A stretch of 48,738 bases of DNA from a virus: positions 1-48,738 of IMG/VR virus record IMGVR_UViG_3300032397_000021. One strand, written 5' to 3'. The notes under the pieces are model-generated. The model worked only from the letters and a program-made list of their open reading frames with translations, ran no database searches and had not been told where the DNA came from. The translations under genes and the position numbers were made by a program. Shown here in pieces: positions 12,939-43,254 of the stretch (within the stretch, counting starts at the first letter, position 1; each line of letters opens with the position of its first letter).

Positions 12939-13630
12939 GTACCGAGACATTGGACCTCGTTACCGCCGGCTGGCGCTGGCAATCGCCGTTCGACTTCGAG
13001 CCCCAGTGGGCCGTGGCGGAGGACGAGCGCGAGCTAGGGAACGTTTCGTCTACCGCCGTGAGCGAGCGCTGCCTTCGGCGCTGGCAGAATCTCCAGTTCT
13101 TTACCAACCTCGAGGCAGCACGCGGATACGTGGTAGACTTCTTCCGCCGTCACGTCGGCGCCGCCGGTCGATTCTACTTCCGGTTCCCGGAGCACGTCGA
13201 GTCTCCGTCGGCCGCACCCACACTGTCCACGGTATCCGGCGGTACCCAGGGCGCGCGCTCGATCACGGCGAAGTACGCATGGAAGAATACATCGGGTACG
13301 ACGCTGGCTTCCCCCGAGGGCACCATCTCCGTCCCCGCCTCGAGCCTTTTGGTCGTCACACTTCCGATTTACCCACCTTCAACCAATCAGGCCGTAATTT
13401 ATGCGGCCGAGGACAGTCCCGGAAATGAGCAGCAGCAGACAATCCTCACGCTCCTCGAATCATGGACTCAGCCGAATACTGCGCTACTCACTGGGACTCC
13501 GTCAGTCTCGACAGCGAACACCGCGATTGAGGTCCCCCTCTGCAAGCTCTCCGGAAACCTCAAGATAACCCGTGGTGATGGGCGCTCCTGGTACCTCACG
13601 CTTTCGATTGATGAGGTGTATGCGCCATGA
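12935..13630 (+). CDS. Minor tail protein, gpM position
   Basis: 231 residues, start overlapping the tape measure stop (ATGA). The N-terminal 90 residues (WRWQSPFDFEPQWAV, then NLEAARGYVVDFFRRHVG and FYFRFPE) and the last 30 residues (ITRGDGRSWYLTLSIDEVY) look like two halves of one distal-tail domain. Between them, residues about 92-195 form a beta-rich Ser/Thr/Pro segment like an inserted Ig-like or fibronectin-like surface domain. Its place after the tape measure fits lambda M, a tail-tip baseplate ring component. Confidence 0.55.
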   Translation: MSTETLDLVTAGWRWQSPFDFEPQWAVAEDERELGNVSSTAVSERCLRRWQNLQFFTNLEAARGYVVDFFRRHVGAAGRFYFRFPEHVESPSAAPTLSTVSGGTQGARSITAKYAWKNTSGTTLASPEGTISVPASSLLVVTLPIYPPSTNQAVIYAAEDSPGNEQQQTILTLLESWTQPNTALLTGTPSVSTANTAIEVPLCKLSGNLKITRGDGRSWYLTLSIDEVYAP

Positions 13631-14874: not shown

Positions 14875-15293
14875 TGGCATCGATCACCAAAATATCCGCG
14901 ATTGCAGACGACTTCCCCGATGCCGTGGTCGACTACGAGGATATGCTGAATTTGTCGTTTGGCGATGATGGCCGCGGATTGGATGGAAAGATCAACTGCA
15001 TCGGAGTGGCCATCGAGATCTTCCGCCGCGCAGGGCTTGGACTCCCTGATCCGCTTTCCCTGGGCCGCGGTATCGATGAATTCCAGGAATTTTTCATCGA
15101 GATCACATCTCCAGATACCCTCTACGATCTAATCCACGTTGGCGGGATCAATAATCATGTCTTGGTGGTCGTGCGCCCTGGTGTCGCCCTGAGTTCAAAA
15201 TACTTAACCGGCGTCTATACCCAGGGTGTCGCACGCGTTAAGCAACTTTCTGACGTCAGGTACTTTCGTGTCGACAGCGACCTGCTCCCCTAA
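14874..15293 (+). CDS. NlpC/P60-like tail hydrolase, gpK C-part
   Basis: 139 residues from ATG 14874 (overlap TGATG). In the gpK position, it has an NlpC/P60-like core: a candidate catalytic Cys at 42 in INCIGVAIEIFRRAGL (the usual motif is DCSG, here DGKINCIG) and a candidate His at 95 in INNHVLVVV. The Mov34-type peptidase half of lambda gpK is missing. Such proteins cleave peptidoglycan peptides when the tail penetrates the wall. The atypical Cys motif leaves activity uncertain. Confidence 0.65.
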   Translation: MASITKISAIADDFPDAVVDYEDMLNLSFGDDGRGLDGKINCIGVAIEIFRRAGLGLPDPLSLGRGIDEFQEFFIEITSPDTLYDLIHVGGINNHVLVVVRPGVALSSKYLTGVYTQGVARVKQLSDVRYFRVDSDLLP

Positions 15294-15297
15294 TTTT

Positions 15298-18200
15298 GTG
15301 ACCGTCCGCACGGTCAAGAATATTCTGGACAAGTCGTCCAGGGATAAGTGGGAGGCCGTCCCGATGCGGGCTGTCTGGGAGTACCTACCTGAGGAGTGGC
15401 GGGTAAAACCGAATGTCCGAATTGTCCACTCGGGCATCGCCGGGACGAACCCATTGACTCCAGAGGAGGCCCAGAAAGCCGTGGCGGCGCCCGGAGACGA
15501 GATTCTACTCTATGAGATTCCGGGGGAATTGTTCACGGCTTTTTCAGCGGCGATCGCCACTGCCCTCATGATCAAGGCCGCGATTATAACCGCCGGAGTG
15601 ATGATCTTGGTCGTTGGACTCTCCTTTGCTATCCGCGCCCTGGCCGCGCCGGCAAAGGACCCCCTGGGAGGCGACCTGGAGGACTCTCCTACCTACGGGT
15701 GGGACGCCGTGGCGAACACCGTCCGGCCGGGTACGCAGATTCCGATCATCTATGGACGGCACCGAGTCGGTGGGCACATCATCCAGCAGTTCCAGCGGGC
15801 GGCAAGAGATAAGCCGGCGACGACAGGCGAGTTAAGCACGCTTATCGCGCTCTGCCGCGGCCCTATCGAGTCGATTACCGACGTGAGGGTAAACAAGAAC
15901 CCGATCGATTCCTATGGCCTCACACCAGATATCCGGCTTGGGACAAATCATCAGTATTGCATCCAAGGCTTCCAGGACTCGGTGACCTACACTGCTCATG
16001 ATCGCGAAATTCTTTATGGAGAAGGCACAGGGAAGGCCGTGGAGGTAATCACGATAACCGAGGTGGACAAGATCGAGGTGATCCTGAGGTTCCCCATTGG
16101 ACTCTGCAAGCTATCACCGAGTGGTCAGTACGAGCAGCGCTCGGTACAGTTCCGAGTCGACTACAGGGAGGAGGGAGCAACAGGCTGGATCTTATCCTCA
16201 GTCTTCCCCGTCTCGGGGCGGACCCAGAACGCATTTGACTATTACCATGTGATTGGTCCCCTATCCATGGCCAAGTACATGATCCGTGTCGTCCGGCTGA
16301 CTCCGGACGATACAGATGCCACAGGTTCAAGCCTCTCCTACCTGTTTGGCGTCAACGAGTACATCGACAACCTGAGATGTACGTACCCTGGAATCGCGCT
16401 ACTGGGTGTGCGTCAGCTCGCGACGAACCAGATTTCGGGGAGCGCCCCCGAGTACGATTGTATGGTCAAGGGTCGTTTGGTCCGCATCTTCACGACGACA
16501 ATCGCCTACACCACGGCATGGAGCGATAATCCGGCTTGGTGCCTCCTGGACCTCTTGACTGACACGGTCTCCGGGCTCGGTGCCTGGATCGCGGACGACG
16601 ATCTGGATATCCAGAGCTTTATCGACTGGGCCGCCTTTTGCGATCGCTTGGTTCCGAAAAATGCCCAGGGTGAACTCGAGAAGCAATTCCGACTCAACAT
16701 TGTCCTGGATGGATCGATGAACGGAATCGAGACTGTTCACCAGATTTGCATCACTGGCCGAGCCAACTGGATGCTCCGCGGGATGAAGTGGGCGATCCGT
16801 ATTGACCAGCCCGAGGAGCCCGTTCAGCTCTTTACCATGGGCTTGATTCACCCCGACACCTTCTCCGTGGCCAAGGCTTCGCGAGCGAATCTCGCAAACC
16901 AGTTCGATGGACAGTTCTGGGACGAGACCTTGGACTTCGAACAGAACGCGATTTCTGTCGGAGACGAGACGCTTCTGGCGACGGAAGAGCAGGTGTGTCG
17001 CGACGTAAACCTCATGGGGACCACGTTGGTGAGCCAGGCTCGCAGGCTGCTCGTCTACTACATGTTGGCTAACCGGCTTGCACGGCGGAACCTTGAGATT
17101 GAGGTCGGGACCGAGGCCATCATGATGGAGGCCGGAGACGTTTTCAAGGTCGCTCATGATGTCCCGGGCTGGGGGCATTCCGGGATCCTGCGGAGTGTGG
17201 ACTCGACCGGTACAACCCTGGTACTGGACCGTCAGGTTACTATCGAGGGCGGTAAGACTTACGAGGTTACGGTTGCCCATGATACGGACATTATCGATGT
17301 GGTGCTGGTGACGTCCGTTCCGGGTACGTCGAACAATATTAAGGTGTCTGGTGACTGGACGAAGCTCCCGGCGCAGGGCACTCACTACTCCTTTGGCGAG
17401 GTCGCTCGCTCTACGGTCCTCTATCGCTGCGTCTCGATCACTCGAGGCTCCGAAGCCTGGGTGCGTAAGATCAAGGCCATCCAGTATGACCCGGACATCT
17501 ATGGTACCGACCTAACGGTGCTGCCAGATGAGAGCCCAACGTGGCTCCCTGACGCGAGGAAGATCCCTCCTGATGTGTATGACCTGAGGATACAGGAGCG
17601 CGAGGTATACGCCGCCGATGGCACGCTCTCCTCCGCCATCGACGTCCATTTCATCCTGCCATCCGTTGCCATGGTTCGGGCCCAAGTCTTTTGGCGTCTG
17701 GATGGGGTTGAGATCTGGGAGGTGGCTGGACCTCCGGTTGACTTCGGGTACTTATCGATTGAGAGGGGCATCCGATCTCCAGGAATCTCCTATGAGGTCT
17801 CTGTCGTCACGCTGTCGCCCAACGGGAACAGGAAGCATCCGAATTCCGGAGTGCGGAAGCTCATCACCACCCAGGGGTCGCTCCGCCAGCCAGACAACGT
17901 CGTGGGCTTCATCGCAGACCGTACCATCGAGGGCCTGGTCTTCTCGTGGCAACCGCTTGAGCCGGTGAAGAATTTCGATTTAGACTATTACGAAATTCGC
18001 CAGGGGGGCACCTGGAATACAGCCGTCAAGATCGGGCAGACAAATGACACCACGTATTCGACAAGAATTTTCGTCAAGGGCACCCAGACCTTCCTATTGA
18101 AGGCATTCAACACGGGCGGTCGCGGGAGTCCGATTGCCGCGTCGGTCGTGATGATCGTCGATGGGCGGATTGGCGAGAACGTCGTTCTGACGCGCCAGGA

Positions 18201-18972
18201 GGACAATACGTGGACTGGGATCAAGGAATCCTTTATTGTCGACAACGGAACGCTCCTCCTCGTGACAGAGACTAACGACGTCGGGTGGAGGGCCACCCAG
18301 TCCATATCCGCCTTCGGGAGTAGCCAGCAGCCCGGAGGGTATGGGCAGGGCTTCCGAGTCACCGGAACCTACACTACGTCCATCTTCGAGATTGCGTCCG
18401 ATGCTCTGCGGAGCATTGTTGCCGTGGAGCTGGAGGCCACGCAGCTCGACGCGGCTTTCTATTGGACGGCTGTTGGCGTCGCTGACCAGGCATGGGACTC
18501 CGACTTCGGCCGTAGGCGCAAGTGGGGCGAGGTGCCCGACGGGAAGGTGGGGATCAAGGTCGAGATGCGTTTTTCTACCGCCGCAACCGCGAATGATGGA
18601 GACTTCGGACCGTGGCAGGAGCGTGCGCAGAACATCGAAATCCTGGCTCGCTGGGCGCAAGTGCGCCTGACAGCGACCGTTACCGACCAGGCATACACGG
18701 CCAGGATCACGCGGCTCAGGATCGGCTTCGATGTTCCTGACGTCGTCGAAGGCGGGAGCACGACCACGGGAACAGGCGGGACGACCACCGTTACCTTCGC
18801 TAAGGCCTTCCACGCCGCCCCCAAGATTTCGGCGATAGTCCTCGGCTCCCTCGCCGGCGACGAGGTGTATGTCGTTGAGGCGACCAAAACAAAAACCAGC
18901 TTCGAGGTTGCCGTCAAGAACGGCGGGAACTTCGTCGCGCGAACCGTGGAATACACGGCAGTAGGGTACTGA
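15298..18972 (+). CDS. Tail tip attachment protein, I-J fusion
   Basis: 1224 residues from GTG 15298, four bases after the K-like stop; ATG 15364 has a better ribosome site (GGAGG) but would cut the first beta-hairpin (VTVRTVKNILDK). Residues 1-80 look like a gpI-type beta-grasp, followed by a hydrophobic segment (79-117) and then the J core from about 130 (YGWDAVANTV...PIIYGRHRVGGHII). The core continues to about 730, with fibronectin-like modules near 735-930 and a C-terminal H-type lectin-like strand set (VTFAKAFHAAPKISAIVL). It forms the central tip and host receptor contact. Lambda has I and J as separate genes. Confidence 0.85.
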   Translation: MTVRTVKNILDKSSRDKWEAVPMRAVWEYLPEEWRVKPNVRIVHSGIAGTNPLTPEEAQKAVAAPGDEILLYEIPGELFTAFSAAIATALMIKAAIITAGVMILVVGLSFAIRALAAPAKDPLGGDLEDSPTYGWDAVANTVRPGTQIPIIYGRHRVGGHIIQQFQRAARDKPATTGELSTLIALCRGPIESITDVRVNKNPIDSYGLTPDIRLGTNHQYCIQGFQDSVTYTAHDREILYGEGTGKAVEVITITEVDKIEVILRFPIGLCKLSPSGQYEQRSVQFRVDYREEGATGWILSSVFPVSGRTQNAFDYYHVIGPLSMAKYMIRVVRLTPDDTDATGSSLSYLFGVNEYIDNLRCTYPGIALLGVRQLATNQISGSAPEYDCMVKGRLVRIFTTTIAYTTAWSDNPAWCLLDLLTDTVSGLGAWIADDDLDIQSFIDWAAFCDRLVPKNAQGELEKQFRLNIVLDGSMNGIETVHQICITGRANWMLRGMKWAIRIDQPEEPVQLFTMGLIHPDTFSVAKASRANLANQFDGQFWDETLDFEQNAISVGDETLLATEEQVCRDVNLMGTTLVSQARRLLVYYMLANRLARRNLEIEVGTEAIMMEAGDVFKVAHDVPGWGHSGILRSVDSTGTTLVLDRQVTIEGGKTYEVTVAHDTDIIDVVLVTSVPGTSNNIKVSGDWTKLPAQGTHYSFGEVARSTVLYRCVSITRGSEAWVRKIKAIQYDPDIYGTDLTVLPDESPTWLPDARKIPPDVYDLRIQEREVYAADGTLSSAIDVHFILPSVAMVRAQVFWRLDGVEIWEVAGPPVDFGYLSIERGIRSPGISYEVSVVTLSPNGNRKHPNSGVRKLITTQGSLRQPDNVVGFIADRTIEGLVFSWQPLEPVKNFDLDYYEIRQGGTWNTAVKIGQTNDTTYSTRIFVKGTQTFLLKAFNTGGRGSPIAASVVMIVDGRIGENVVLTRQEDNTWTGIKESFIVDNGTLLLVTETNDVGWRATQSISAFGSSQQPGGYGQGFRVTGTYTTSIFEIASDALRSIVAVELEATQLDAAFYWTAVGVADQAWDSDFGRRRKWGEVPDGKVGIKVEMRFSTAATANDGDFGPWQERAQNIEILARWAQVRLTATVTDQAYTARITRLRIGFDVPDVVEGGSTTTGTGGTTTVTFAKAFHAAPKISAIVLGSLAGDEVYVVEATKTKTSFEVAVKNGGNFVARTVEYTAVGY

Positions 18973-20798: not shown

Positions 20799-20805
20799 CG
20801 GATGA
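20590..20805 (+). CDS. Nested out-of-frame membrane protein
   Basis: Starting at ATG 20590, with AGGAG nine bases upstream, a 71-residue protein begins with a long hydrophobic stretch (MIKAFMIVFLSFSLSIMVGF) and continues with a Ser/Asn/Pro-rich tail. It lies inside the 20445 gene in another frame, which recalls Rz/Rz1 spanin pairs. However, there is no lipobox cysteine. A longer version from ATG 20443 is also open. It overlaps the lyase start by four bases. Confidence 0.35.
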   Translation: MKIMIKAFMIVFLSFSLSIMVGFVIRASSMQLLNRSANPSSHSKPESLQGSGVSDSNNSTATSHSPQETDG

Positions 20806-23177
20806 CGGTTCCAGCCTTTACGGTTTACACAGGCGAGACACCGGACTTCAAGGCGCATCCTCGGCTCCTCTTTCGTCACGTAGACAAGGCTGCGCTTACG
20901 GCCCGGACGAATTCCACGGCTGGCTGGAAAAATGAATGGGATATGATTACCCCACGGGAAGCCTGGCGTGTCGGATGTGTCGTCGACGAGTACATGGGGA
21001 ATCCGATAGACATTATTTCTCAAGATGGCACCGGTAGTGGAAGTATAAATAATGCCTACTCGAAGACGCTTGCCATGGCATTCTGGGGATGGATCGAGGA
21101 GACTGGACGTACGGCCAATGGAGCGACAGATACTGCAATCGATGCCGTTATCTGGGCAGTGGATAATGTCACTGGCCTCGATAAGACCGAATCCAGAATT
21201 CGAGAGATGCTCCAGGTGGCGGCAGTGGTGTATGACATCTGCTACGATCAGATGACAGTAAGCGAGCGACAAAAGGTAGCAGGGTTTATCGTTGGCCTTG
21301 CAAATTGGATAATTCCCAAGTTGTCTCCACTGGACAACATCGACGGGCACTCGGGAATCAATGCGACCTGTACACTGCTTGGTCTGCTCGCTGCATACAA
21401 CAACCCTAGTTACGCGAGCACCATCGCGGATCAACTCGATGATGTCCTCCAGTACCTTTTTGGGACTACGGATTTGATTGGGCGTCTATCTTATCCGCGT
21501 CTTTGTTTTACCGATGGCCACACCGAGAAGGGACATCACTACATCTACTACGGTTTTTGGTGTGAGCTCATCGCCATATGGGCCATGACCAAGGCTACGA
21601 GTTGGAATGGATTCGTAGCCGAGTCGGCATGGACATCGAAAGTTTGGGAGGAACTTCTCTGGCATTGCAAGGGTGGATCGGTTATAGCCACTCAGGGCAT
21701 GGGGGATATGTATCGATACGATCCTCCATTCGGATGGGACATGCGCTGGGGTACCACCATTCTGGCCGCGATGAATTCCGCGAGTGAGAACGGCCGAATG
21801 GAGAAATGGTTGTTCGATCAATGGGAGGCCACGAATCCTCATGTGTGGGGTGCGACGAGGGTCTTCGATGTCATCTTTCTCGACCGTGCTAACATCGCCG
21901 CACTTCACCCGAAGGACGCATCTCCATCGCCATCGACTTCTCGGCTCTTCACGAAGCCCGGAGTCTATTACGGCCGGAAGGCGAAGCGTGGATCGAGCTA
22001 TTCGAGCTGGGACATTGATAACATCGCCACGATTCGAATTTCGGCAAGAGGCCGCTACTACTCGGGCCATGCGCATCTCGACGCGGGTTCGATGAATCTC
22101 AGCGTGAAAGGCGACATAGTCTGCTTGACCCCAGCAGGCGTCTACGATGGAGCTGGGACGACACTCAGTCATTACAATGGATATACGCGGTCGTGGCTAC
22201 AGAGTTGGGTCCCATTGATTTACAATTCGTCCGAGGAGTTCAGGTGGCAGAATGGATCCACAGTGAGCATCAATGACGGTGGTCAACAGTGGAAGCTTTA
22301 CGCCGCATACACTCCTATCGAGTCAACGAGGTACGACTCTGGTAGCGCATGGCACATGTACAATGACGCAGGCGGGGAAGCCTGGATGCGATGTCGAGAG
22401 TTTTCGAAGGTCGAGGAGACCGTAGACAGCCACACTTTTCTTTTTGCGAATATTGCGGACGCCTACAAACTCTATGATACATCGTCGCTCAAGTGTCCGA
22501 TCCTTGAAGTAAAATATCTCGTAATCTGGCCAAACGCATCTAATGGACTCTACTGGCCAGCGGTCCTTTACTACGCGAGGGTCAAGAAGCAGACGGCCTC
22601 ATGGCCAGTCAAGATTCCGGTTCATACCGCGACGTCTTGGACTGCGACGAGCTATGGCGCTCACACCGTAGGCTATCAGGGTGTCGGGAAGCTCTGGATC
22701 GATATCTTCAACAAGTCGGCGCAGACAGTGACGATCCGGCCATATAGCTCCTCGACTCGCTACACTGCGCCGTGGAATTCAACGAACTACCCGCCGCAAG
22801 ACGCAAAGGGAAGCGAACTCCCGTTCGAAACGAAGTCCATGCTCACGATCGGGAAGACGGCTCCGTCCGAGGAGGAGCACTATGTGGTCCTTTCCATGCT
22901 TTCGGAGGCTGACGACCCGGAGCCCGCGCAGTCGAGGCAATGGATCACCGATGCCAACTGGTATGGGATCACACTGGGAAGTGTGGACTACCGGATCAGC
23001 AAGACTCTGAAGACGTGTTCAGTCGGGGGTGGTGGACCCGACACGACGCCTCCAGGCGAGGTATCGAGCTTTCTGGCGACTGCCAAGAATCGGGGCATTC
23101 TCGTGACGTGGACCGATCCTGCCGACGCGGATCTCAAGGATGTGATGATCAAGTGTCGCACAAGCGCAACAAGCTGA
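20802..23177 (+). CDS. Heparinase II/III-like polysaccharide lyase
   Basis: 791 residues, ATG 20802 with CAGGAG upstream. The N-terminal half (to ~360) looks like the alpha/alpha toroid of heparinase II/III and alginate lyases, starting with HPRLLF. Candidate active-site segments are DGHSG (H183), DGHTEKGHHYIYYG (238-251) and the hallmark GHAHLDAGS (422-430) opening the C-terminal beta-sandwich. Residues ~740-791 resemble part of a fibronectin III domain. As a fibre-cluster gene it probably acts as a tail depolymerase, cutting host capsule or acidic exopolysaccharide. Most phage depolymerases are beta-helical; this fold is unusual. Confidence 0.75.
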   Translation: MTVPAFTVYTGETPDFKAHPRLLFRHVDKAALTARTNSTAGWKNEWDMITPREAWRVGCVVDEYMGNPIDIISQDGTGSGSINNAYSKTLAMAFWGWIEETGRTANGATDTAIDAVIWAVDNVTGLDKTESRIREMLQVAAVVYDICYDQMTVSERQKVAGFIVGLANWIIPKLSPLDNIDGHSGINATCTLLGLLAAYNNPSYASTIADQLDDVLQYLFGTTDLIGRLSYPRLCFTDGHTEKGHHYIYYGFWCELIAIWAMTKATSWNGFVAESAWTSKVWEELLWHCKGGSVIATQGMGDMYRYDPPFGWDMRWGTTILAAMNSASENGRMEKWLFDQWEATNPHVWGATRVFDVIFLDRANIAALHPKDASPSPSTSRLFTKPGVYYGRKAKRGSSYSSWDIDNIATIRISARGRYYSGHAHLDAGSMNLSVKGDIVCLTPAGVYDGAGTTLSHYNGYTRSWLQSWVPLIYNSSEEFRWQNGSTVSINDGGQQWKLYAAYTPIESTRYDSGSAWHMYNDAGGEAWMRCREFSKVEETVDSHTFLFANIADAYKLYDTSSLKCPILEVKYLVIWPNASNGLYWPAVLYYARVKKQTASWPVKIPVHTATSWTATSYGAHTVGYQGVGKLWIDIFNKSAQTVTIRPYSSSTRYTAPWNSTNYPPQDAKGSELPFETKSMLTIGKTAPSEEEHYVVLSMLSEADDPEPAQSRQWITDANWYGITLGSVDYRISKTLKTCSVGGGGPDTTPPGEVSSFLATAKNRGILVTWTDPADADLKDVMIKCRTSATS

Positions 23178-23184
23178 GGAACCT

Positions 23185-23565
23185 ATGGCAACATTCCAAC
23201 CTGACTGGACCGAGGGAGTCGAACTTCACGCGTCGGAAGTCATCGCGCAAAATGGATCCGAGCAAGACGACATAGACATCGACTATCTCGGATACTACGC
23301 AATCCGAGGGCAGATCGATGTCACTGCGGCGACAGGAGCCTCGGGCGATGTGATTGTGGAGCTGTATGGATCCTGCGACTCTGGATCTCACGTCGACACG
23401 GAGGCATCCCAGAGGATACCGATTTCGTTCACCGCGGCTGCCCAGAAGATCCGAGGCTTTACTTTTGGACCCGGACCGTGGGTGCGCGTGAAGGTCTCGA
23501 ACTATACAGGTCAAAATGTTACCTACATCTGCAGATACGCAGGTCTCAAGCAGGTCTCCTCATGA
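23185..23565 (+). CDS. Probable virion protein, unknown
   Basis: 126 residues, beta-rich, without membrane segments. Strands such as GYYAIRGQIDVTAATG and WVRVKVSNYTGQNVTYICRY suggest a small beta-sandwich, comparable with the small fibre-linked domains of this block. The start lies eight bases after the lyase stop and the stop overlaps the LamG gene start (ATGA), so it is part of the same expression unit. No family recognised. Confidence 0.55.
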   Translation: MATFQPDWTEGVELHASEVIAQNGSEQDDIDIDYLGYYAIRGQIDVTAATGASGDVIVELYGSCDSGSHVDTEASQRIPISFTAAAQKIRGFTFGPGPWVRVKVSNYTGQNVTYICRYAGLKQVSS

Positions 23566-24611
23566 TTCTGAAACCATCTCCCTGGTCACTCGAGATGTGC
23601 CGGCTGTCCCCGGAGGCGCAGGAGCTATGGCGTCTATGCGTCCTGGCATTCCCGCTCTGGGATATGGGACAGCGCTATGCGCATGACCAGAGTCCCTACG
23701 GGAATCATGGGACCTTTGGCGCGGGGCTCCTTACAACAGATTGGGTAGGGAGCCCCTACGGCGCGGCGCTGAGCTTCGGCGGCGGACTGACCGACGTGAT
23801 TACCGTGGCTGACCCAGTCACGAGCTGGCTAGACAATGGATCTGCGATCTCGGCAGAGGTTGTCTTTTGCCCGACAAGCGTGGCTCTGAAGCATGGACTG
23901 CTCAACAAATATTGGACGTCCGCTGGTCAGCGATCCTGGCGATGGTATATGAATTTGACCGAGCTTGAGCTTCAGGTTTCTGTCGATGGAACCGCCTATG
24001 AGGTCCAGACCACTAGCGGCGCCGGGCTCACGGTTGGGACGTGGTACCATGCGATCTTCACTTTCCGGTCGGGAGTTTTCAAAACCTATCTGCAGGGGAA
24101 ATCTATCCCGGTCGACGCGGACTTCGCGACGACCTCGGTCTTCGGGGGGCCTCAGCCGCTCCTAGTCGGACAGCGCCTGAGCGATGGCGGGGGCGCTGTG
24201 GATCTCTTCCTGGGCCAGATCGCGAGTGTACGGGTCTGGCAGCGGGAGCTGAGTGCCTGGGAGGCCCAGGCGCTCTACGAGGCCCCGTGGGCCATGTACG
24301 ACCCAGGGATCCTCGGCATGCTACCGGGGCCAGGGTACGCGCTCGAGCACTCGGGGGGGAGTGGCCCGGGCCCCTGGTGGGACGCTGGGACGGTCCAGAA
24401 GGGCGTCCAGGCACTCCTAATCGAAGGCCTGGACAACGGGGTCAAGCACGACGTTCAGGCCTTCACGCGGGATACGAGCGACAACGTGAGTGCCGGCAGC
24501 GTCCTGGACGACGCGACCCCCGTGGGAATGGATGTGTCCTGGGATGGGGTCCGGCGAGTCACTACGTCGGCGCCCAGGCCGCCGGCGATCAGGAGGGCTC
24601 TCAGGCGATGA
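23562..24611 (+). CDS. LamG/concanavalin-like tail protein
   Basis: 349 residues from ATG 23562. Residues about 35-240 form a LamG-type concanavalin fold: YAHDQSPYGNHGTF near the start, LTVGTWYHAIFTFRSG in the middle and GQIASVRVWQRELSAWEAQAL at the end, the standard LamG_3 strand order. The last 90 residues are Gly/Pro-rich, then polar and beta-like (VQALLIEGLDNGVKHDVQAF). LamG domains bind glycans, so an adhesin role in the tail is likely. ATGA overlaps join it to both neighbours. Confidence 0.7.
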   Translation: MILKPSPWSLEMCRLSPEAQELWRLCVLAFPLWDMGQRYAHDQSPYGNHGTFGAGLLTTDWVGSPYGAALSFGGGLTDVITVADPVTSWLDNGSAISAEVVFCPTSVALKHGLLNKYWTSAGQRSWRWYMNLTELELQVSVDGTAYEVQTTSGAGLTVGTWYHAIFTFRSGVFKTYLQGKSIPVDADFATTSVFGGPQPLLVGQRLSDGGGAVDLFLGQIASVRVWQRELSAWEAQALYEAPWAMYDPGILGMLPGPGYALEHSGGSGPGPWWDAGTVQKGVQALLIEGLDNGVKHDVQAFTRDTSDNVSAGSVLDDATPVGMDVSWDGVRRVTTSAPRPPAIRRALRR

Positions 24612-26255: not shown

Positions 26256-29200
26256 ATGGCTGTTGAGAGACTTCTCGCAAACCTTACCGAGTCTGCTGGC
26301 TGGCCCATAGACTGGGCCTGCGGAACCGAAGACAGAACGAACGCCATCGTTCATGACGATGGCGACTTCAGCTACATCAACTCGGAGACACAGGGTGCTG
26401 CGCAAGGGATAGGGTTTTACGACACTCAGTTTATCGGCGATGACGACCAGATAAACAGTGTCACGTTTGTGGTCGTCGCGAAGAATGAATACGCCGGGGA
26501 CACGGCGATTATTCGCGTCAAGTCGCATGCGCTCTATACGTCGACTCCGGACGCGCAAGAAGTCAAGGATGACTTCTACAACGAGTACCGGTTCACGTTT
26601 GCCGAACGTGCACCGAACGTTCCATGGACCAGGGGTTGGGTCAATCTTGCTTGGGCCGAATTGATTTCCGAGGCCGATGCCCATGTAAGGGTCACGCAGG
26701 TCTACGCGATTGTTGACTACGTTCCCTCGGTACCGAATGTTCAGGTCGAGGCCGGGGCGCAGATAGTTCACACGGTTAAGAATGTCTCTGCAGGCGCTGT
26801 CGTTCGCTTGCCTATCGAGTTGCCGCTTATGGGAGCGGGCGCCGGCTACTATGATCCATTAGACAAAGGGCACGGCGGAACTTTTGATTTGATTTATGCC
26901 GGCGCTTGGCTGTATGGATATCCGCCGACAAATGATTATGTCTACCTGATGACTCCGATTTCCGCCGGGGCGCAGCTTGCGATTTGCCCCCAGGTCAGAC
27001 GAGTCTTGACTGGAGAGATACTCGCCTGGAGTACTACCGTAAGCACAGTTACGTTGAGTGCCACAGTCGATCCGACGAAGTCAATTTTGTTCTTCGGGTT
27101 TCGAGAGGCGACTACCATACGGCAGTGCGACGCCGAAATTGGCGGAACGTTTGTTAGCCTGACTTCTCCAACGAATCAGATCGTATTCCATAAAGGGACG
27201 AGTGATCCCTATGTAATAGACGCACTCAGATGGTGGGTAATTGAATTTGCCGATGGGGTGTCAGTTGAGCATAAACTGTTGACTCTTCCGGGCGGAAGCT
27301 TAACGACACCTCAGACTGGATTTCTAAATTTAACCACTCCAGTCGCTAAGGGAAGAAGCTTCTGTCTCCTCAGTAACGATCCGACCGCTAGCACTCCAAC
27401 TGCCTGGAACAACGATGACTTTATCAAGGTGTTTCTATCTGGTTTGGTAGGAGTGGACTGGACAAATATAACCTGGGAGACCAACGGGACTAGTTCGACT
27501 TCTCATCATCTCCACGTCCAGATAGTACAATGTGACAATGGGTATGCTTCGGTCCAAGAGGGCGTCATCGCCCATACCAGCGGTTCTTCGGTTACTGCGA
27601 CCCTGTCGCCCACGATACCAAAAAATAGACTTGTCGCCTTCTTCACGTCCAAACAGGCTGGGTCGAGCACGACAGAAACCGCACTGCACAGTCGGACTTG
27701 CGTTCCCAATGCAGACATAGCTACTGGTCTGACTTTTCAGGCGCAGGCGATTGCCGGTGGCGGGCACAGCATCTACTGGTACGCGATTCAATTCCATGCC
27801 GCCACAGTACAGCACTACGATGTATCCTTTGGCGCTGCAGATCTCTACAAGACTGTAACGCTGACGACTCCGGTAGATGTTCGCTACGCATTGCCGATTG
27901 TCCACATCAGTGGACATCAGTTTTCTAATATGCGGGCTACATCTGCAACGTCTGTTGACTTTGCTCGTCACTTTACCGAGGTCGAATGGGGAACGGTAGT
28001 AGCCAACAAGGCGCAGACTATCGTAATTTCTCGTGGGGCGGTTACCGCCCTAACTACGGCATTGCTTCATCTTCAGGTTGTCGAATTCGTGCCTTATTCA
28101 GGCACCACGAAGAACGTCGATGCCGGCGCGCGCGTTCGGTATACAAAAACAGTCGCTGCCGGAGCCGGGATCCGCTGGGGGCCTGCCGCGACGTTAGTAG
28201 GAGCCGGGCTGCGTCATGGACCCACGGCGAAGACCGCGGGGGCTGCGGTCCGCTACGAGAAGACGGCGACAGCTGGTGCGGGCCTACGGCATGGACCCGC
28301 GGCTAAAAACGCCGGGGCGGGCGTAACGCTTTCCAAAACGTTGAATTGTGGCGCGAATCTCGCTGCGGTTTCTGCGACTGTCAATGTATCAGCTGGCGCC
28401 GGGTTACGTCACGGCCCCACGGCGATGGCTGCGGGTGCGGCTCTTGTCATCGCTTTGACGACGATTTCCGCAGGTGCTGGAGTACGTCAGGGTCCGACGG
28501 CTCTGTCGGCTGGCTCAGAACTCCAGAAGACCAACGTCCTTTCCGCATACACCGACACCTGGAGCTACTACTATTGCACCTCTGGGACTCCGACGGACTA
28601 CTACGCTGCCGCATTCTACGGCGCGAGCTACGACAAGTCGGCATGGTCCACGGGGCCCGGGATCTTCGCTTGGCCCGCAGATGGTCTTACGGGCCTTTCT
28701 GCCGCCACAGTGGGCACATCCAGTGGTCATCATGCCACGGGTACGGCTCCTCCGATCTACATCATCCAGGACATCTACATCCCGGACAAGACGAAGCTCG
28801 TCAGCCTGAAGTTCGAGGTCATCTACGATGATGGCTTCGTCTTCTGGGTCAATGGAACAGAACTCACTGGCTCCGGGATGCCGACTGCCGGCAGGCCGAC
28901 GACGATCAGCGGATCGGGTACGACCGGATTTTCTACGCTCACGATCTCCAGTAACGACGAGGGTGATGTCCACACCTACACGTTGACCGGCGCAATGCTC
29001 GACGCGTTCGTCACCGGGATGAATCGCATCGCTGGAATCTGCCTCGATTGCAATGCCACATCGACCGACATTGGGTTTGGTGTCAAGATTACCGCGACCC
29101 ACCTTGCGAGTTGGGCTCACAAGGATGTCTCGGCTGGGGCAAGAGTCCAGTTCACGACATCCGTCGCAGCCGGTGCGGAGTTGTCTGGCGTTACTCTCTT

Positions 29201-32200
29201 GGCCGGTGCGGGTCTCGTCCATGGGCCTGCGGCCAAAGATGCCGGGGCCATGCTCCAAAGCGCGAAGACCGTTACTGCCGGCGCGGCAGCTACGCTGTAC
29301 CGCACGCTCAATGCCGGGGCATCGCTCCCCGGAAAAGAAGTCGCTGCCGGTGCGGGATTGCGGATTCAGAAAGACGCGACGGCCGGCGCGGCACTCAAGA
29401 TACCCAAGTCGCTCGATGTTGGCGCGAGTGTCAAGACCGTAGGTGCCGCGCTGAGCATCATGTCGGATGACTTCTCGAGTCCGGCAGCTCCGAGCGACAT
29501 CGACACGAACAAGTGGCAGGAGTACGTTCAGTCGACTGCCGGCGCCGCATCCTATGGGCACGTCGACGACTCCGGAACGCAACGCGGCCGAATTCTCGGA
29601 GGCACCGGATCCGATCAGCACTGGATGCTCGCGAAGAACTGGACCGAGACGGACTACGATGCCTCGGTTCGCTGGAAGTACAACAGCACGACGTCCTACT
29701 ACGTGGCATTGTCGGTGCGTGTCGGAAAATCCGGAGACTCGACCGTCTCCGGAGTCAACAACATCTACCTCCAGATCAACCCCTCGAGTTCGTCGAACAA
29801 CGTAATTCTTCAGCGTCGTTACTGGACGACTTCGGCTCAAACCGTAGCAGTCGCCACAGGTAGTCTCGCGATTTCGGCGAACACCGAATACCGCTCGAGG
29901 ATTCGAGTCTCCGGGACGAACATCAAGGCCTGGATTTACAACGCGGCTGGAACCGCCGTCCTCACATTCGACAACGGCGGAGCCGGGTACGACATCTCCA
30001 CAACGAATCCATCTGGCCCTCCTGGATTCAAATTCTCGCATTCGAGCGAGACCTCGAGCGACTACTTCACCTTCTGGGATTTCCAGATCAACCGGATTTC
30101 TTCCACAAGCCAATTCGAGGTCTTCGCCGGAGCGACATGGTCCGGGACGGTTCTTCAGTATGCCGCCGGGGCGGCGCTTCTCGTCCCGTCGATTCAACGG
30201 AACGTCGCCGCAGGCGCCGCTATCAATACGTTGCCTGCTCAATATTGCCCACCCATGGTCTTCGGCATCACCGAGACCTTGGTGTCGGTGCACGTCGAGT
30301 ATCAGGCGGCAGCCGATCAGTACATCGAGTACGGGCCCAGCGAGGCCGAGATCGCGAAGTACACGACTTCGACCCAGACGAACGTCACCCTGGTTACACA
30401 GAATATCCCCAACGGCGAGGGCGACTTCTCCGCTGGCGGAACTGTGTGGTACCGCGTGCGTGCTCGAGCGACCGGGTCCGGATCTTACGGGATCGGATTC
30501 CACCACTTCACGCAGCTCGCACGATCCGGCAGCGACTCTACTCCTTGGAAATGGATTCACGTTTCGGATTCGCGTGGGGAAACGTCGAATACAATTTCCC
30601 CCAAGTTCACCGATGTGATCCAGCAGATTTTCCCGGGTGCAGGATCCGATGAATTTTTGCTGTGCACTGGCGACCTCTACAATCCGGCAAGCGATAGCGC
30701 ATCTGGCATCACGACCTCGACACGCGCATGGCGCTCGGGGGCTACCGGGTGGGGGCAATACGGAGAAAAGGGAGCAAATCTCCAGCTAAAGCATACTTTC
30801 GGGAATCACGAACTCGACTCCGATACTGCGAAAGCGGACGCACGAAAGGTGCGATTGTTGCTCGGTCCATGCGCTTCCTTGGCGGGGCAACAGACGGATG
30901 GCGTAGACTCGAGCTGGAAAGAGCGCTACTACTATTTCACGTGGGGCGGAGCGGTCTTCTTCGTCCTCGACTCCTATGCCTATGGGCTCGCCAGTCAGTA
31001 CCGGATGAGCCCGGCTCAGTGCACATGGCTGACTGCGGCAATGGAGCGGTTCAAGGAGTATCGCTGGAAGTTCATCTGTCTCCATAAGTTTGTCGATCAG
31101 GATGACCCTAACCACGGAGACAACATCACCTCTCCGAGCGGCGCGGCGGCAAACCAAACTTTCCTCTTCAACCTGATCAAAAAGTATGGCGTTCAGATCG
31201 TCTTTAATGGCCATTACCATGGATGGTACATCCGCCAAAGAAACTCGAAGGAATGGTACGTCACTACGAACTTCGAGAACAGCGATGGAACGACTTCTGG
31301 CGGGTTTAACGGAGATGTAAACGATAAGCGTTACGTGCGCGTGCGCATGGGGCTCGGGTGGAACGGGTCAAGTTACGATGTCAATCCGAAGAAACTCACG
31401 CTCGAAATCACGAAGATCGACGGGACGATCACGGCCCGTACGGTAGTCAACACCTCGGACTCTCCATGGACCTGGGGCGAGAAGATCGTTACTTGCGGAG
31501 TCGCGGTCAAGTCGCTCCGGATCATCGCGGCTGGCGCCGACATCCTTGTCGGAACGACGGTCGATGTCGCTGCCGGCGTGGGAGTCCGGTGGAGCAGGAC
31601 CCCCATCGCTTCGGGAGTTGGTTTGCAGCTACCGAAGAACGTGTCCTCCGGCGCTGGGCTCCGCCACGGGCCTACGCCTATCGATGCTGGGACTATCCTT
31701 CGCCGAACCGTCCCAGTATCTGCCGGCGCGGGGATTGTCCATGGGCCTACAGCCAAGGCCGCAGGGGCAATGCTGCAGCAAACCCCTTCGGCGTTGACCG
31801 CAGGAGCCGCCGCAACGCTCTATAAGCTTGTGTCGGCTGGAGCAAACGTTTCTCAACCGGGATCGATCTCGGTTACTGCCGGAGTCGGGGTGCGCTGGAC
31901 CGTGGCCCCTGAGGCGGGAGCCGGGATCCGCAAGGGACTCGTGACTGCCGGGTTGCCATGGGTCGAGGTGGGCACGAACGCGCTTCCAGCCGGGATCTAT
32001 TCCCATACGACCCTGTCGTACCAGGGCAAACTCTGGCAGATCGGCGGCTCGGACGGCACGACGATCTCGAAGAAGGTCTACTGGTCCTCGGATTTCGGCG
32101 CAACATGGACCGAGGCGGGGACGAATGCCCTACTCGAGGCGACCTACAGCCATGCGAGTGTCGTATACGACGGCCGAATGTGGGTCTTCGGCGGCACCAC

Positions 32201-33713
32201 TCCAACCGGGATGTCGAGAAAGGCTTCGTGGTCCATCGATGGCGCGACATGGACCGAGGCGGGGACGAACCAACTGCCGTCGCTATGGGATCGCGGAGTC
32301 GCACTCTCCCACGACGGGTGGATATGGCTCATAGGTGGGTATAGCTCTCAACGGAAGCAAGTCTGGCGCTCTCAGGACTGCATCACGTGGTCTCAGATCG
32401 GGACCGACGTCCTCCCGATCAATGTCTATCACCATGCCGGATGCGTCCACGATGGAAAGATGTGGATTTCTGGTGGCGCTGATCCGAGTTCGGGACTGAG
32501 GCACAAGAAAGTTTTCTGGTCGACCGCCGGTTCGACATGGACCGAGGCGGGAACTGATGCCCTGCCGATAGCTAATTTCGAACACAAAATGATTTCTACC
32601 GATGGTCAGATGTGGATCATCGGAGGAAGCACACAGGGCGGGATCATCACCCGGGCGATTCTTTCGAGTGTCGACGGCGCGGCATGGATTGAGATCGGAG
32701 TCAATGGTCTCCCCGAGCAGCGGTACGAGCATAGTGCGCTCGTATTCCGTGACCGCATGGTCGTCACCGGCGGAATCTACACCGTCGACAAGCGTACAGT
32801 CTTCTCAGCGCCGGCTGTCTCGGGGCTCTCTGCGGGCGCGGCTCTTGTCCACGGACCCGCGGCCCTGACCGCTGGCGTCGCGGTGCGCCAGACACCCTCG
32901 GCGATCTCCTGCGGCGCGGGGCTCCACCACGGGCCCGCGGCGAAGGTCGCAGGCGCAGGGATCCGCTGGGGACCTGCGGCGACGACCGCCGGAGCCGGGC
33001 TCCGTCACGGTCCGACAGCGCTTGACGCCGGAGCGGTACTCCAGCGTACACTTCTGGTCTCGACTGGCGCAGGGCTCCTCCATGGCCCTGCGGCTGAGGC
33101 TGCAGGCGCCGGCCTCCGCCACGGGCCCACGGCTATCGATGCCGGAGCGGTGTTGCGCCGTACGGTGCCGATAGCTGCCGGAGCCGGGCTCCAGGCGATC
33201 ACTATCATGGCCGGGGCATCTCTGCAGCAGACCCCTGCGGCTCTGACTGCCGGATCTGGCCTCCGCCACGGGCCTGCGGCTCTGACTGCCGGAGTGGGGG
33301 TTCAGCGCGGTAAGGACGCGCTCGCAGGGGCTGGGGTGAGGCTCGGGGTCCTCCTCGACGCCGGCGCCGGCCTTCATCACGGGCCTGCGGCCAAGATTGC
33401 CGGGGCCGCCATCAGGATCTCTCGGACACCGATCGCCGCCGGGGCTCACATTGTGGGGGGCGTCTCGGTCTCTGTCGGCTCGGGACTGCGTCATGGTCCT
33501 GCGTCCCTGACTGCCGGCGTCGCTGTGCGGCAGACACCGCCAGCCCTGGACGCGGGAGCGCTCCCGACGTGCTATAGGACGGTCTTCGCCGGGGCGTCGA
33601 TTCTGACCGCGGCAGAAACCGTCAAGACTTGGACTTTTATTTCTCGCGTGGTTCCATACCGCCACTGGGACTCGAGGATCGCGGAATCCGACTGGAATTC
33701 GAGGACTGGTTGA
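26256..33713 (+). CDS. Giant mosaic tail protein with AGA repeats
   Basis: 2485 residues, the largest gene. Order: N-terminal domain (1-160); four tandem ~90-residue beta domains (about 240-611), each closing on a strand like WWVIEF or LQVVEF; AGA repeats (622-756); a beta domain resembling a sugar-binding jelly roll (760-950); repeats (958-1070); a ConA-like domain (1072-1285); a fibronectin-like domain (1330-1420); a calcineurin-type metallophosphoesterase (1430-1725) with D1438, GD 1472-1473, GNHE 1516-1519, H1610 and GHYH 1652-1655; repeats (1756-1898); a six-bladed Kelch-like propeller (1900-2187), units opening WTEAGTNALP; and ~20 more repeats to 2455. Likely a host-surface adhesin that can remove phosphate groups. 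No homologous architecture is known to me. Confidence 0.75.
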   Translation: MAVERLLANLTESAGWPIDWACGTEDRTNAIVHDDGDFSYINSETQGAAQGIGFYDTQFIGDDDQINSVTFVVVAKNEYAGDTAIIRVKSHALYTSTPDAQEVKDDFYNEYRFTFAERAPNVPWTRGWVNLAWAELISEADAHVRVTQVYAIVDYVPSVPNVQVEAGAQIVHTVKNVSAGAVVRLPIELPLMGAGAGYYDPLDKGHGGTFDLIYAGAWLYGYPPTNDYVYLMTPISAGAQLAICPQVRRVLTGEILAWSTTVSTVTLSATVDPTKSILFFGFREATTIRQCDAEIGGTFVSLTSPTNQIVFHKGTSDPYVIDALRWWVIEFADGVSVEHKLLTLPGGSLTTPQTGFLNLTTPVAKGRSFCLLSNDPTASTPTAWNNDDFIKVFLSGLVGVDWTNITWETNGTSSTSHHLHVQIVQCDNGYASVQEGVIAHTSGSSVTATLSPTIPKNRLVAFFTSKQAGSSTTETALHSRTCVPNADIATGLTFQAQAIAGGGHSIYWYAIQFHAATVQHYDVSFGAADLYKTVTLTTPVDVRYALPIVHISGHQFSNMRATSATSVDFARHFTEVEWGTVVANKAQTIVISRGAVTALTTALLHLQVVEFVPYSGTTKNVDAGARVRYTKTVAAGAGIRWGPAATLVGAGLRHGPTAKTAGAAVRYEKTATAGAGLRHGPAAKNAGAGVTLSKTLNCGANLAAVSATVNVSAGAGLRHGPTAMAAGAALVIALTTISAGAGVRQGPTALSAGSELQKTNVLSAYTDTWSYYYCTSGTPTDYYAAAFYGASYDKSAWSTGPGIFAWPADGLTGLSAATVGTSSGHHATGTAPPIYIIQDIYIPDKTKLVSLKFEVIYDDGFVFWVNGTELTGSGMPTAGRPTTISGSGTTGFSTLTISSNDEGDVHTYTLTGAMLDAFVTGMNRIAGICLDCNATSTDIGFGVKITATHLASWAHKDVSAGARVQFTTSVAAGAELSGVTLLAGAGLVHGPAAKDAGAMLQSAKTVTAGAAATLYRTLNAGASLPGKEVAAGAGLRIQKDATAGAALKIPKSLDVGASVKTVGAALSIMSDDFSSPAAPSDIDTNKWQEYVQSTAGAASYGHVDDSGTQRGRILGGTGSDQHWMLAKNWTETDYDASVRWKYNSTTSYYVALSVRVGKSGDSTVSGVNNIYLQINPSSSSNNVILQRRYWTTSAQTVAVATGSLAISANTEYRSRIRVSGTNIKAWIYNAAGTAVLTFDNGGAGYDISTTNPSGPPGFKFSHSSETSSDYFTFWDFQINRISSTSQFEVFAGATWSGTVLQYAAGAALLVPSIQRNVAAGAAINTLPAQYCPPMVFGITETLVSVHVEYQAAADQYIEYGPSEAEIAKYTTSTQTNVTLVTQNIPNGEGDFSAGGTVWYRVRARATGSGSYGIGFHHFTQLARSGSDSTPWKWIHVSDSRGETSNTISPKFTDVIQQIFPGAGSDEFLLCTGDLYNPASDSASGITTSTRAWRSGATGWGQYGEKGANLQLKHTFGNHELDSDTAKADARKVRLLLGPCASLAGQQTDGVDSSWKERYYYFTWGGAVFFVLDSYAYGLASQYRMSPAQCTWLTAAMERFKEYRWKFICLHKFVDQDDPNHGDNITSPSGAAANQTFLFNLIKKYGVQIVFNGHYHGWYIRQRNSKEWYVTTNFENSDGTTSGGFNGDVNDKRYVRVRMGLGWNGSSYDVNPKKLTLEITKIDGTITARTVVNTSDSPWTWGEKIVTCGVAVKSLRIIAAGADILVGTTVDVAAGVGVRWSRTPIASGVGLQLPKNVSSGAGLRHGPTPIDAGTILRRTVPVSAGAGIVHGPTAKAAGAMLQQTPSALTAGAAATLYKLVSAGANVSQPGSISVTAGVGVRWTVAPEAGAGIRKGLVTAGLPWVEVGTNALPAGIYSHTTLSYQGKLWQIGGSDGTTISKKVYWSSDFGATWTEAGTNALLEATYSHASVVYDGRMWVFGGTTPTGMSRKASWSIDGATWTEAGTNQLPSLWDRGVALSHDGWIWLIGGYSSQRKQVWRSQDCITWSQIGTDVLPINVYHHAGCVHDGKMWISGGADPSSGLRHKKVFWSTAGSTWTEAGTDALPIANFEHKMISTDGQMWIIGGSTQGGIITRAILSSVDGAAWIEIGVNGLPEQRYEHSALVFRDRMVVTGGIYTVDKRTVFSAPAVSGLSAGAALVHGPAALTAGVAVRQTPSAISCGAGLHHGPAAKVAGAGIRWGPAATTAGAGLRHGPTALDAGAVLQRTLLVSTGAGLLHGPAAEAAGAGLRHGPTAIDAGAVLRRTVPIAAGAGLQAITIMAGASLQQTPAALTAGSGLRHGPAALTAGVGVQRGKDALAGAGVRLGVLLDAGAGLHHGPAAKIAGAAIRISRTPIAAGAHIVGGVSVSVGSGLRHGPASLTAGVAVRQTPPALDAGALPTCYRTVFAGASILTAAETVKTWTFISRVVPYRHWDSRIAESDWNSRTG
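28122..28520 (+). repeat. AGA repeat block 1 (coding)
   Basis: About eleven 12-13-residue units encoded in residues 622-756 of the mosaic protein. Consensus by eye: x-x-A-G-A-G-[LIV]-R-H-G-P-T-A, alternating with a shorter form ending in a charged x-x-K-T. At the DNA level, many units share long stretches, such as GCGGGCCTACGGCATGGACC and close variants. Confidence 0.8.
32821..33620 (+). repeat. AGA repeat block, C-terminal (coding)
   Basis: About twenty units in tandem (residues 2190-2455) with the same consensus as the earlier blocks. Units of type AGAGLRHGPAA and AGAVLQRT alternate irregularly. The DNA repeat GGGCTCCGTCACGG and its variants recur, so this is a likely site of unequal recombination. 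Confidence 0.8.
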
Positions 33714-34480: not shown

Positions 34481-34672
34481 ATGGCTCCGACGAACAAGAG
34501 AAAACTCACCAATTTGGCTCTCTCTCCTCAAGCACGATTCGTCCTCGAGGCAATCGCAACGCAGCGCACGGCAGAACGCGGCGGCAAGCCGGCCAGCATG
34601 ACGGCCGTGATGGAGGACGCCCTCCTGGCCTTCGCCGTCCAGCTCGGGGTCCGGGTGAGGAGGAGCGCATGA
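34481..34672 (+). CDS. Ribbon-helix-helix-like regulator
   Basis: 63 residues from ATG 34481. The core KLTNLALSPQARFVLEAIA, followed by a loop and MTAVMEDALLAFAVQLGV, matches the strand-helix-helix pattern of Arc/CopG-type dimers that bind DNA through a beta ribbon. It diverges from the membrane gene and overlaps the integrase start (ATGA), so it may repress the shared promoter region and control integrase. A longer form from ATG 34454 is possible. Confidence 0.6.
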   Translation: MAPTNKRKLTNLALSPQARFVLEAIATQRTAERGGKPASMTAVMEDALLAFAVQLGVRVRRSA

Positions 34673-35928
34673 TGGCTGCCGCGAGGAGGCTACTCGCTGG
34701 TCCACGGGTGGACTCACTGGCGGGCGACCCCCCGGTTTTCGCGGTAATTTTGGGTGGATGTTCGCGTACTGGTGATACACGCGCATCCCCGAACGTCGGA
34801 CGAACAGACGCCGTATTGACGAACGTCACTACGGCGGAAACCATTGATCCAGCGGTCCGGGGGGACTTCGGGGGGAAAGGCCTGCGAGGAGGCGATGTGC
34901 GCTTCGCGGGACCATGTCGTCGGCAGGGATCCCCCTGCTGGTACTGTAGGGTACGGGACCCTAGGACCGGCCGGCGGTCCTGGCGGTCAACGGGCACGAC
35001 CGTGCTCCGAGCGGCGCGGGCCATCATCCGCCGCTGGGAGGTGGAGGAGGCGGAGAGCGGCGTCCAGACGCTGACCCACCAGCCGACGGTCGCCCAGTCC
35101 GTGGGCCATTGGCTCGAGCGGGAGGAGGCGAGGCTCTCGCCCCTGACGTGCAGGCGCCTCCGGGGCGTTGCCCGCCAGTGGCGGGAGGCCTGGGGTAGCA
35201 TGGCGCTGGGCGACCTGACGTCTGGCATGCTCGACATCTACCTGGCCGGCCGCCGTCAGGCGTGTGCCGCCACGACGGTCAACCTCGAACGCCGGCTCCT
35301 CCTCTGGTGGCTTGCGGACGCATGTCGCCGCGGCGAGATCCGGACGTCGGCGGCCAAGGCGACAGAGCGCTACCCGGAGGAGGTCCACGAGCTACGGGTC
35401 CTCCGCGGGGACGACCGCTTGCGCCTGGAGGCGGCTCTCGAGGTTGAGCCGTGGGATGTCCGCCTCGCCGTGGTCCTGGCGCTCGAGACGGGGCTCCGCC
35501 AGCGGGCGATACTCGCCTTGCGCTGGGAGTGGATCGACACGGAGGGTGGGTGGATCGCGCTCCCAGCATCCGCGCTCAAGAGCCGCAGAGATCTACGTCT
35601 CCCCCTGTCGCCGGACGCACTGGCCGCCGTCCGTCGAGGGCAGACGGCGGTCCTCGGTCCGGTCTTCCGTCGATGCGCCGAGGACCTGCGCCGTCACTGG
35701 GTGCGGATCGTCCACCGTGCCGGGTTGCGTGGTCTGCACTTTCACGACCTGCGGAAAACGTTTCTTACGGACCAGTGCAAGAGAGGCACGCGCATGGAGG
35801 TGGCCATGGCGCTGAGCGATCATCGCGATCTGCGCACGGTCCTCAAGTGCTACAGAGCGATCGATCCGGAAGAGCTGCTCAGGGCAGTGGGTCGCACGTC
35901 GGATTCCGCGAGAGAGAGTGGAGCATGA
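34669..35928 (+). CDS. int: Tyrosine recombinase integrase
   Basis: 419 residues. Catalytic residues are all present: R277 (ETGLRQRAIL), K304 (ALKSRRD), H359 and R362 (HFHDLRKTF), H385 (LSDHRDL) and nucleophile Y395 (KCYRAI). Residues 78-130 resemble an arm-binding domain (WYCRVRDPRTGRRSWRSTGT) and 135-215 a SAM-like core-binding domain. ATG 34669 has AGGAGGAG just upstream and overlaps the regulator stop. A GTG at 34897, with GAGGAGG, could make a 343-residue form without the odd, Gly-rich first 76 residues. It integrates and excises phage DNA at att sites. Confidence 0.93.
   Translation: MMAAARRLLAGPRVDSLAGDPPVFAVILGGCSRTGDTRASPNVGRTDAVLTNVTTAETIDPAVRGDFGGKGLRGGDVRFAGPCRRQGSPCWYCRVRDPRTGRRSWRSTGTTVLRAARAIIRRWEVEEAESGVQTLTHQPTVAQSVGHWLEREEARLSPLTCRRLRGVARQWREAWGSMALGDLTSGMLDIYLAGRRQACAATTVNLERRLLLWWLADACRRGEIRTSAAKATERYPEEVHELRVLRGDDRLRLEAALEVEPWDVRLAVVLALETGLRQRAILALRWEWIDTEGGWIALPASALKSRRDLRLPLSPDALAAVRRGQTAVLGPVFRRCAEDLRRHWVRIVHRAGLRGLHFHDLRKTFLTDQCKRGTRMEVAMALSDHRDLRTVLKCYRAIDPEELLRAVGRTSDSARESGA
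34818..34827. other. Small palindrome within integrase 5' end
   Basis: GACGAACGTC is a near-perfect palindrome. Its parts GACGAAC and GAACGTC occur again at 34790-34804 (CGAACGTCGGACGAACAG). Clustered short repeats in the 5' end of an integrase gene may be binding sites for the integrase or the upstream regulator. Weak evidence. Confidence 0.3.
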
Positions 35929-42525: not shown

Positions 42526-43254
42526 ATGGAAACGAAGTGGATTGACGCGTTGAGAAAAATCGGTGCATGCCTCGATGCTGTGGTCTGGGCCGAGACTCAG
42601 GAGAATCCGGCAGTGGCCTGGGCAGCATGCCAGAGAGGCGACTGGATGCTTTGGCTCATCGTCAATTGCGACACGGCGGACGTCTCGCAGATGAAGAAAC
42701 TCGTCCTGGCGGCATGCCGGTGTGCACGACTGGCATTGCCATTCGTGAGAGTCGGTGAGGATCGGCCGAGGCTGGCGATAGAGGCTGCGGAGGCCTGGAC
42801 GCGAGGAGAGGTGAGCATCGATAAGATGCGACCCGTCTTCTCCGCAGCCGCCGACGCAGCCGCCGACTCCTGGGACGCCAACGACTTAGTCTCCGAGTCA
42901 GCCGCCACAGCCGCCGCCGTCTCCGCTGCCGCCGTCGTTGACGCCGTCTGCGCCTTCTCCGCCGTCGAAGCTGCTGCCAAAGCTGCTGCCTATGCTGCTG
43001 CTGATGCTGTCGATGCCGCCTACGCTGTTGTCGACCCTGCTGCCAAAGCTGCTGCCAAAGCTGCTGCCTATGCTGCTGCTGCTGATGATGCTGCTGATGC
43101 TGCTGCCAGAGCTGCTGCCTACTACGCTGATGCCGCCGCTGATGCCGCTGTCCATGCTGCTGCCGAAGCCGCGAGGATACGGGTCTATGCGCAGTGTGCG
43201 GATATAGTGCGCGAGATATTTCCAGGGCCGCCGGAACTGGGAGGTAAAGTATGA
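42526..43254 (+). CDS. Imm5-like protein with alanine-rich tail
   Basis: 242 residues. The N-terminal ~100 (AACRCARLALPFVRVGEDRP then RLAIEAAEAWTRGEVSID) match the pattern of Imm5-type putative immunity proteins. Residues ~105-222 are about half alanine in irregular AAAKAAAYAAADA units, predicted to be one long helix, encoded by GCTGCTGCC triplet runs. The length of the alanine part probably varies by slippage. In phages its role is unknown; immunity or anti-defence is an inference. Overlaps the next start. Confidence 0.6.
   Translation: METKWIDALRKIGACLDAVVWAETQENPAVAWAACQRGDWMLWLIVNCDTADVSQMKKLVLAACRCARLALPFVRVGEDRPRLAIEAAEAWTRGEVSIDKMRPVFSAAADAAADSWDANDLVSESAATAAAVSAAAVVDAVCAFSAVEAAAKAAAYAAADAVDAAYAVVDPAAKAAAKAAAYAAAADDAADAAARAAAYYADAAADAAVHAAAEAARIRVYAQCADIVREIFPGPPELGGKV

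Follow-up and report, generated by a model that had tools for sequence, protein, structure and literature searches.

A virus record in IMG/VR (IMGVR_UViG_3300032397_000021, whose complete 48,738-nucleotide sequence is the window analysed here) encodes a single 2485-residue mosaic protein, P0001, in which a metallophosphoesterase-like domain, a six-bladed Kelch propeller and several beta-rich domains are separated by six arrays of a 12-13-residue unit (the AGA unit) that belongs to no named family. We consider it rather probable that P0001 serves a temperate lambda-like siphovirus as a giant accessory tail protein, whether side fibre or receptor-binding, in which the arrays would act both as spacers holding binders and an enzyme off the virion and as exchangeable joints. 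On this view a single host-recognition protein of a phage unites a Kelch propeller with a phosphatase-like enzyme; we found no description of such a combination.

Architecture of P0001 and its surroundings

The P0001 frame runs without interruption from an ATG at 26256 to a stop at 33713, with a GAGG-like ribosome site close upstream, and across the C-terminal array it is the only open frame of the + strand. The single gene and the mosaic of metallophosphoesterase, Kelch and other domains separated by arrays, both proposed in the initial annotation, were borne out. The layout and the principal neighbours are as follows:

15226..18972, +, tail tip protein J (phrog_31, 1e-116)
20802..23177, +, distantly heparin-lyase-like protein, tail-cluster neighbour (NF045571, 3.1e-13, far under the equivalog cut-off)
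23478..24611, +, LamG/concanavalin-like neighbour protein (PF13385, 2.2e-13)
26256..33713, +, P0001, 2485-residue mosaic protein (single open frame with ribosome site)
26256..26744, +, N-terminal domain, residues 1-163 (no Pfam match)
26739..27011, +, array 0, four degenerate AGA units, residues 162-252
27003..28112, +, beta-rich region, residues 250-619, about four repeats by eye, without family
28113..28547, +, array 1, 12 AGA units, residues 620-764
28545..29126, +, domain of residues 764-957, beta-sandwich-like by eye ('YDDGFVFWVNG')
29124..29468, +, array 2, 10 AGA units, residues 957-1071, collinear with array 1
29466..30143, +, weak concanavalin-A-like domain, residues 1071-1296 (PF22237, 1.1e-5)
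30153..30251, +, array 3, 2 units, residues 1300-1332
30306..31476, +, putative FN3-like domain plus metallophosphoesterase, residues 1351-1740, purple-acid-phosphatase-like layout (PF00149)
31485..31961, +, array 4, 12 AGA units, residues 1744-1902, unit order in common with array 2
31962..32825, +, six-bladed Kelch propeller, residues 1903-2190 (PF24681, 6e-19; LZTR1, 1e-13)
32823..33629, +, array 5, 21 AGA units, residues 2190-2458
33630..33713, +, C-terminal tail ending in TWTFISRVVPYRHWDSRIAESDWNSRTG (compare the TWRPEGGRTWRPESPG tails of related loci L140 and L025)
34669..35928, +, integrase, downstream of P0001 (PF00589, 6e-16; phrog_1, 2e-36)

For the propeller, the earlier reading of six Kelch-like blades was correct. 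GG-motif repeats and a closed blade number, which define Kelch beta-propellers, are both found: six GG motifs lie at 1922-2173 with a spacing of about 48 residues, PF24681 scores 68.7 bits against a cut-off of 50, and the LZTR1 Kelch domain aligns with the entire propeller.

Pfam returned no family for residues 1-163, 250-619 or 764-957, and a PDB search of the last was equally negative. Of the tandem beta domains described initially, the repeats visible by eye in 250-619 stand, without a family to place them in; of the lectin-like domains, residues 1071-1296 keep a weak concanavalin-A-like assignment (25.9 bits, just under the PF22237 cut-off of 27), while 764-957 is without family. Residues 1-163 are a possible virion anchor, with no detectable homology to known tail anchors.

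Misassembly often arises at repeats, and one might ask if P0001 is a chimera of separate genes joined through its arrays: the third-position GC content of the 250-619 region (0.51) lies below that of most of the remaining gene (0.65-0.71), and P0001 has no close relative in anything searched. We regard this as very improbable, since the frame stays open across six arrays and all junctions, and the units are merely about 60-79% identical in DNA, which makes short-read collapse unlikely.

The metal site of the metallophosphoesterase

Our searches confirmed the forecast calcineurin-family match, PF00149 scoring 24.6 bits (cut-off 21.5) on the isolated segment, as against a sub-threshold 20.3 bits on full-length P0001. 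The domain had been credited with all core metal ligands, and the seven residues named (D1438, D1473, N1517, H1518, H1610, H1653 and H1655) are indeed all present; the word 'all', on the other hand, does not hold, as the DxH position reads D-S-R with Arg1440 replacing the His, the other DxH/GD/GNH/H/GHxH ligands being kept. The GDxxY tyrosine of purple acid phosphatases (PAPs) is also absent (GDLYN, with Asn1476 at D+3). DxH is characteristic of classical calcineurin-type enzymes and DxG of PAPs, and such variation occurs within the superfamily.

Among 195 genomes of the Myxococcus phylum, the domain finds its best relatives in FN3-plus-phosphatase proteins, to which the P0001 segment is 26-28% identical (alignment A3). 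When these relatives and the P0001 segment were combined in a profile, PDB entries for purple acid phosphatases were matched at 4e-28, a value driven mainly by the relatives, and PF16656 was matched by five of the aligned relatives and not by the P0001 sequence itself. An AlphaFold model of the domain was too low in confidence for use (pLDDT 37.8), and its Foldseek matches were discarded. Compared with the FN3-PAP set (PF16656 plus PF00149; loci L148-L162; PDB 6git and 1kbp), P0001 likewise has a putative FN3-like domain followed by the metallophosphoesterase, with the GNHE, GHxH, H and D motifs; it differs in having D-S-R for DxG and GDLYN for GDxxY, and in being embedded in a phage array protein.

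Because of the D-S-R and GDLYN deviations we consider catalysis plausible rather than secure. The domain may instead have lost activity and only bind phospho-glycan, which would make P0001 a pure multivalent receptor-binding fibre; Arg1440 and the missing PAP tyrosine speak for such a loss. We find this somewhat unlikely, given that six other metal ligands and the catalytic-type H1518 are retained at so low an identity to PAP-like relatives, a pattern that suggests selection for the site. We keep a putatively active phosphatase-like domain as the preferred reading.

The AGA repeat and the array proteins of related phages

Scanning P0001 with the core pattern [AVSTC]-G-[AVST]-x-[LIVM] gave 67 matches, 61 of which fall within the six linker arrays (4, 12, 10, 2, 12 and 21 units), so that the regular repeat first put at about 55 units of 12-13 residues is retained with a revised count of about 61. 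Unit spacing is mostly 13 (23 cases) and 12 (14 cases), with 42 pairs at 11-13 residues; 1000 shuffles of P0001 gave 9 matches and 0.1 +/- 0.3 regular pairs. The consensus is h-x-A-G-A-x-[LVI]-x-x-(GP)-x-x, and every one of the three conserved residues (A, G, A) is encoded by all four of its codons, indicating conservation as protein rather than recent DNA amplification. Arrays 1 and 2, which flank the 764-957 domain, align unit by unit in order (0/500 order shuffles as good), and arrays 2 and 4 are likewise collinear (1/500). This collinearity implies that the arrays were copied as blocks, as we would expect if domains enter P0001 via inter-array recombination.

The alternation of small and hydrophobic residues suggests one strand plus a turn per unit. 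AlphaFold placed roughly one strand in each of ten units, at a pLDDT of 36.8 that gives no usable fold, so the regular beta-solenoid or fibre anticipated at the outset was not obtained; with its simple sequence the array is nonetheless a candidate for a new protein fibre.

In line with the earlier suspicion that the repeat had no known match, the AGA array gave none in Pfam, PHROGs, NCBIfam or the PDB. Neither P0001 nor its unit had a relative in 50,697 phage records, where the BLAST low-complexity filter probably masked the array query (tblastn), nor, within the limits of pattern scans, in IMG/VR and 84,980 genomes; the viral collection may omit records near the window. Exact AGAGLRHGP gave 10 IMG/VR matches, every one single, by chance and in an unrelated frame; a two-unit pattern gave 11 chance matches there, and 4 chance or overlapping-frame matches in the 84,980 genomes. 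A three-AGA pattern at 12 spacing gave 60 IMG/VR matches, almost all low-complexity or hexapeptide-type and none resembling the P0001 array. In the 195 genomes of the Myxococcus phylum (that of L146) array profile A1 picked up one low-complexity LDAGAT protein, which was rejected, and one further weak match in which no array was found. A viral protein at L089:5826-6881(-) carries about 30 hexapeptide units GIKAG[SEW]; its array (GIKAGS) was rejected as a relative for its different period. The supposition that no protein of this layout had been described also held in a literature search for such phage tail proteins, a search whose coverage took in few subscription papers.

Relatives of the window terminase (TerL) are 53-55% identical to it, and the closest phages are G001 (L140), G002 (L142) and G003 (L025). 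G001 and G003 encode a large protein whose 20-residue units follow AAxLQADANLxAxxxVDR and whose W/R-rich tail (TWRPEGGRTWRPESPG) is reminiscent of that of P0001; in G003 the contig ends within this protein. When the array proteins of G001 (L140:13741-17277, -) and G002 (L142:13772-17341, -) are compared, their first 398 residues are 91% identical (85% in DNA), whereas the G002 array (TPAPASAPATAPDPTARVxA) is wholly unlike that of G001 except for one shared mid-array stretch of 115 nt. We rejected the idea that the two are frame-shifted copies of each other, as the DNA does not align. A common head followed by unrelated arrays indicates that phages of this group exchange spacer arrays as whole modules, and offers a way to test the route by which giant tail proteins acquire domains.

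The L140, L142 and L025 proteins resemble P0001 in their long short-period array, those of L140 and L142 also in their beta-domain head, and the array core of L140 and L025 (h-x-A-D-A-x-L) recalls h-x-A-G-A-x-L; all three differ in having 20-residue units and in lacking a metallophosphoesterase or Kelch domain. Similarity between the AGA and 20-residue units, though suggestive, did not reach significance (12 of 200 column shuffles did as well, P ~0.06), so that we claim no homology between them, and none was found between the P0001 domains and the L140 protein. Judging from these phages, the AGA array belongs to a set of several exchangeable array types: no database searched yielded the AGA spacer, and related viruses bear other spacers of similar general style. 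As a tentative generalization, which we hold with less conviction than the tail assignment itself, short beta-strand arrays (12-13-residue AGA units here; 20-residue ADA/ATD and APDP units in relatives) may represent, in large phage tail proteins, a class of exchangeable spacer not described before, swapped wholesale between close relatives and serving as recombination joints for accreting enzymes and binding domains.

Genomic context and proposed role

Read from its gene content and order (terminase, portal, capsid, tape measure, gpL-like protein, J, accessory genes, P0001 and then integrase), the virus is a lambda-like temperate siphovirus; the terminase is gpA-type, a major head protein is also encoded, and temperateness follows from the integrase 3' of P0001. 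By their predicted domains the neighbours (the LamG protein, the lyase-like protein and the concanavalin-A-type domain of the gpL-like protein) are all carbohydrate-directed. The second half of the gpL-like minor tail protein (13627-14874) contains a concanavalin-A-like domain (DUF1349/GH43_C2). The product of 20802-23177 is a 791-residue protein distantly like HepB (heparin/heparan-sulfate lyase), a candidate depolymerase for which a PDB search returned no match. Elsewhere in the window, 42526-43254 encodes a 242-residue protein with a highly alanine-rich, quasi-periodic middle part (AAAKAAAYAAADAVDAAYAVV). The contig of L137, whose J protein is related to that of the window, carries three adjoining radical-SAM-like genes (2674-6153; CxxxCxxC motifs, by eye).

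P0001 lies within the tail cluster, as is typical of tail fibres and receptor-binding proteins, and because it is the last gene of that cluster, after J, a role as phage tail or receptor-binding protein is the most likely one; the term 'adhesin' first applied to it is apt in this sense and not in that of a bacterial adhesin, this being a virus record with a tail cluster. Its position near the integrase is also where moron genes usually reside, and P0001 might on that account be a protein of lysogenic conversion, which the prophage expresses and the host displays or secretes as an adhesin or ecological enzyme. We judge this quite unlikely: P0001 shares the strand of the tail cluster and is separated from it by short spacing, neither of its ends shows by eye a signal peptide or cell-wall anchor, and array proteins of the relatives lie among fibre genes. 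We infer, then, a virion location for P0001.

As part of a tail, each AGA unit would contribute a short beta strand and a turn, the array forming an extended beta-rich spacer that would keep both the enzyme and the concanavalin-A-like, Kelch and other beta domains at a distance from the virion. The propeller and beta domains would bind host surface glycans, and the phosphatase-like domain would remove (or bind) phosphate that masks or forms part of the receptor polymer; with its non-canonical metal site, surface dephosphorylation is a fair hypothesis. Block duplication of the arrays and their wholesale exchange between relatives would allow new domains to be inserted with the rest undisturbed.

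Set against known Kelch propellers (PF24681, PF24981; LZTR1), that of P0001 likewise has six blades and aligns over its full length, and is distinguished by its phage context; among phages it has only marginal matches (E 0.01-0.07), to Pseudomonas jumbo phage proteins, some of which are annotated as virion structural. Enzymatic tail fibres that modify rather than cut the receptor are known, an example being phage Possum, whose tail fibre deacetylates O-polysaccharide for attachment (PMC9569702), and the abstract of PMC10194240 describes tail lysins that act on teichoic acids. In these systems a tail enzyme acts on a host surface polymer as we propose for P0001, using an enzyme family other than its putative phosphatase.
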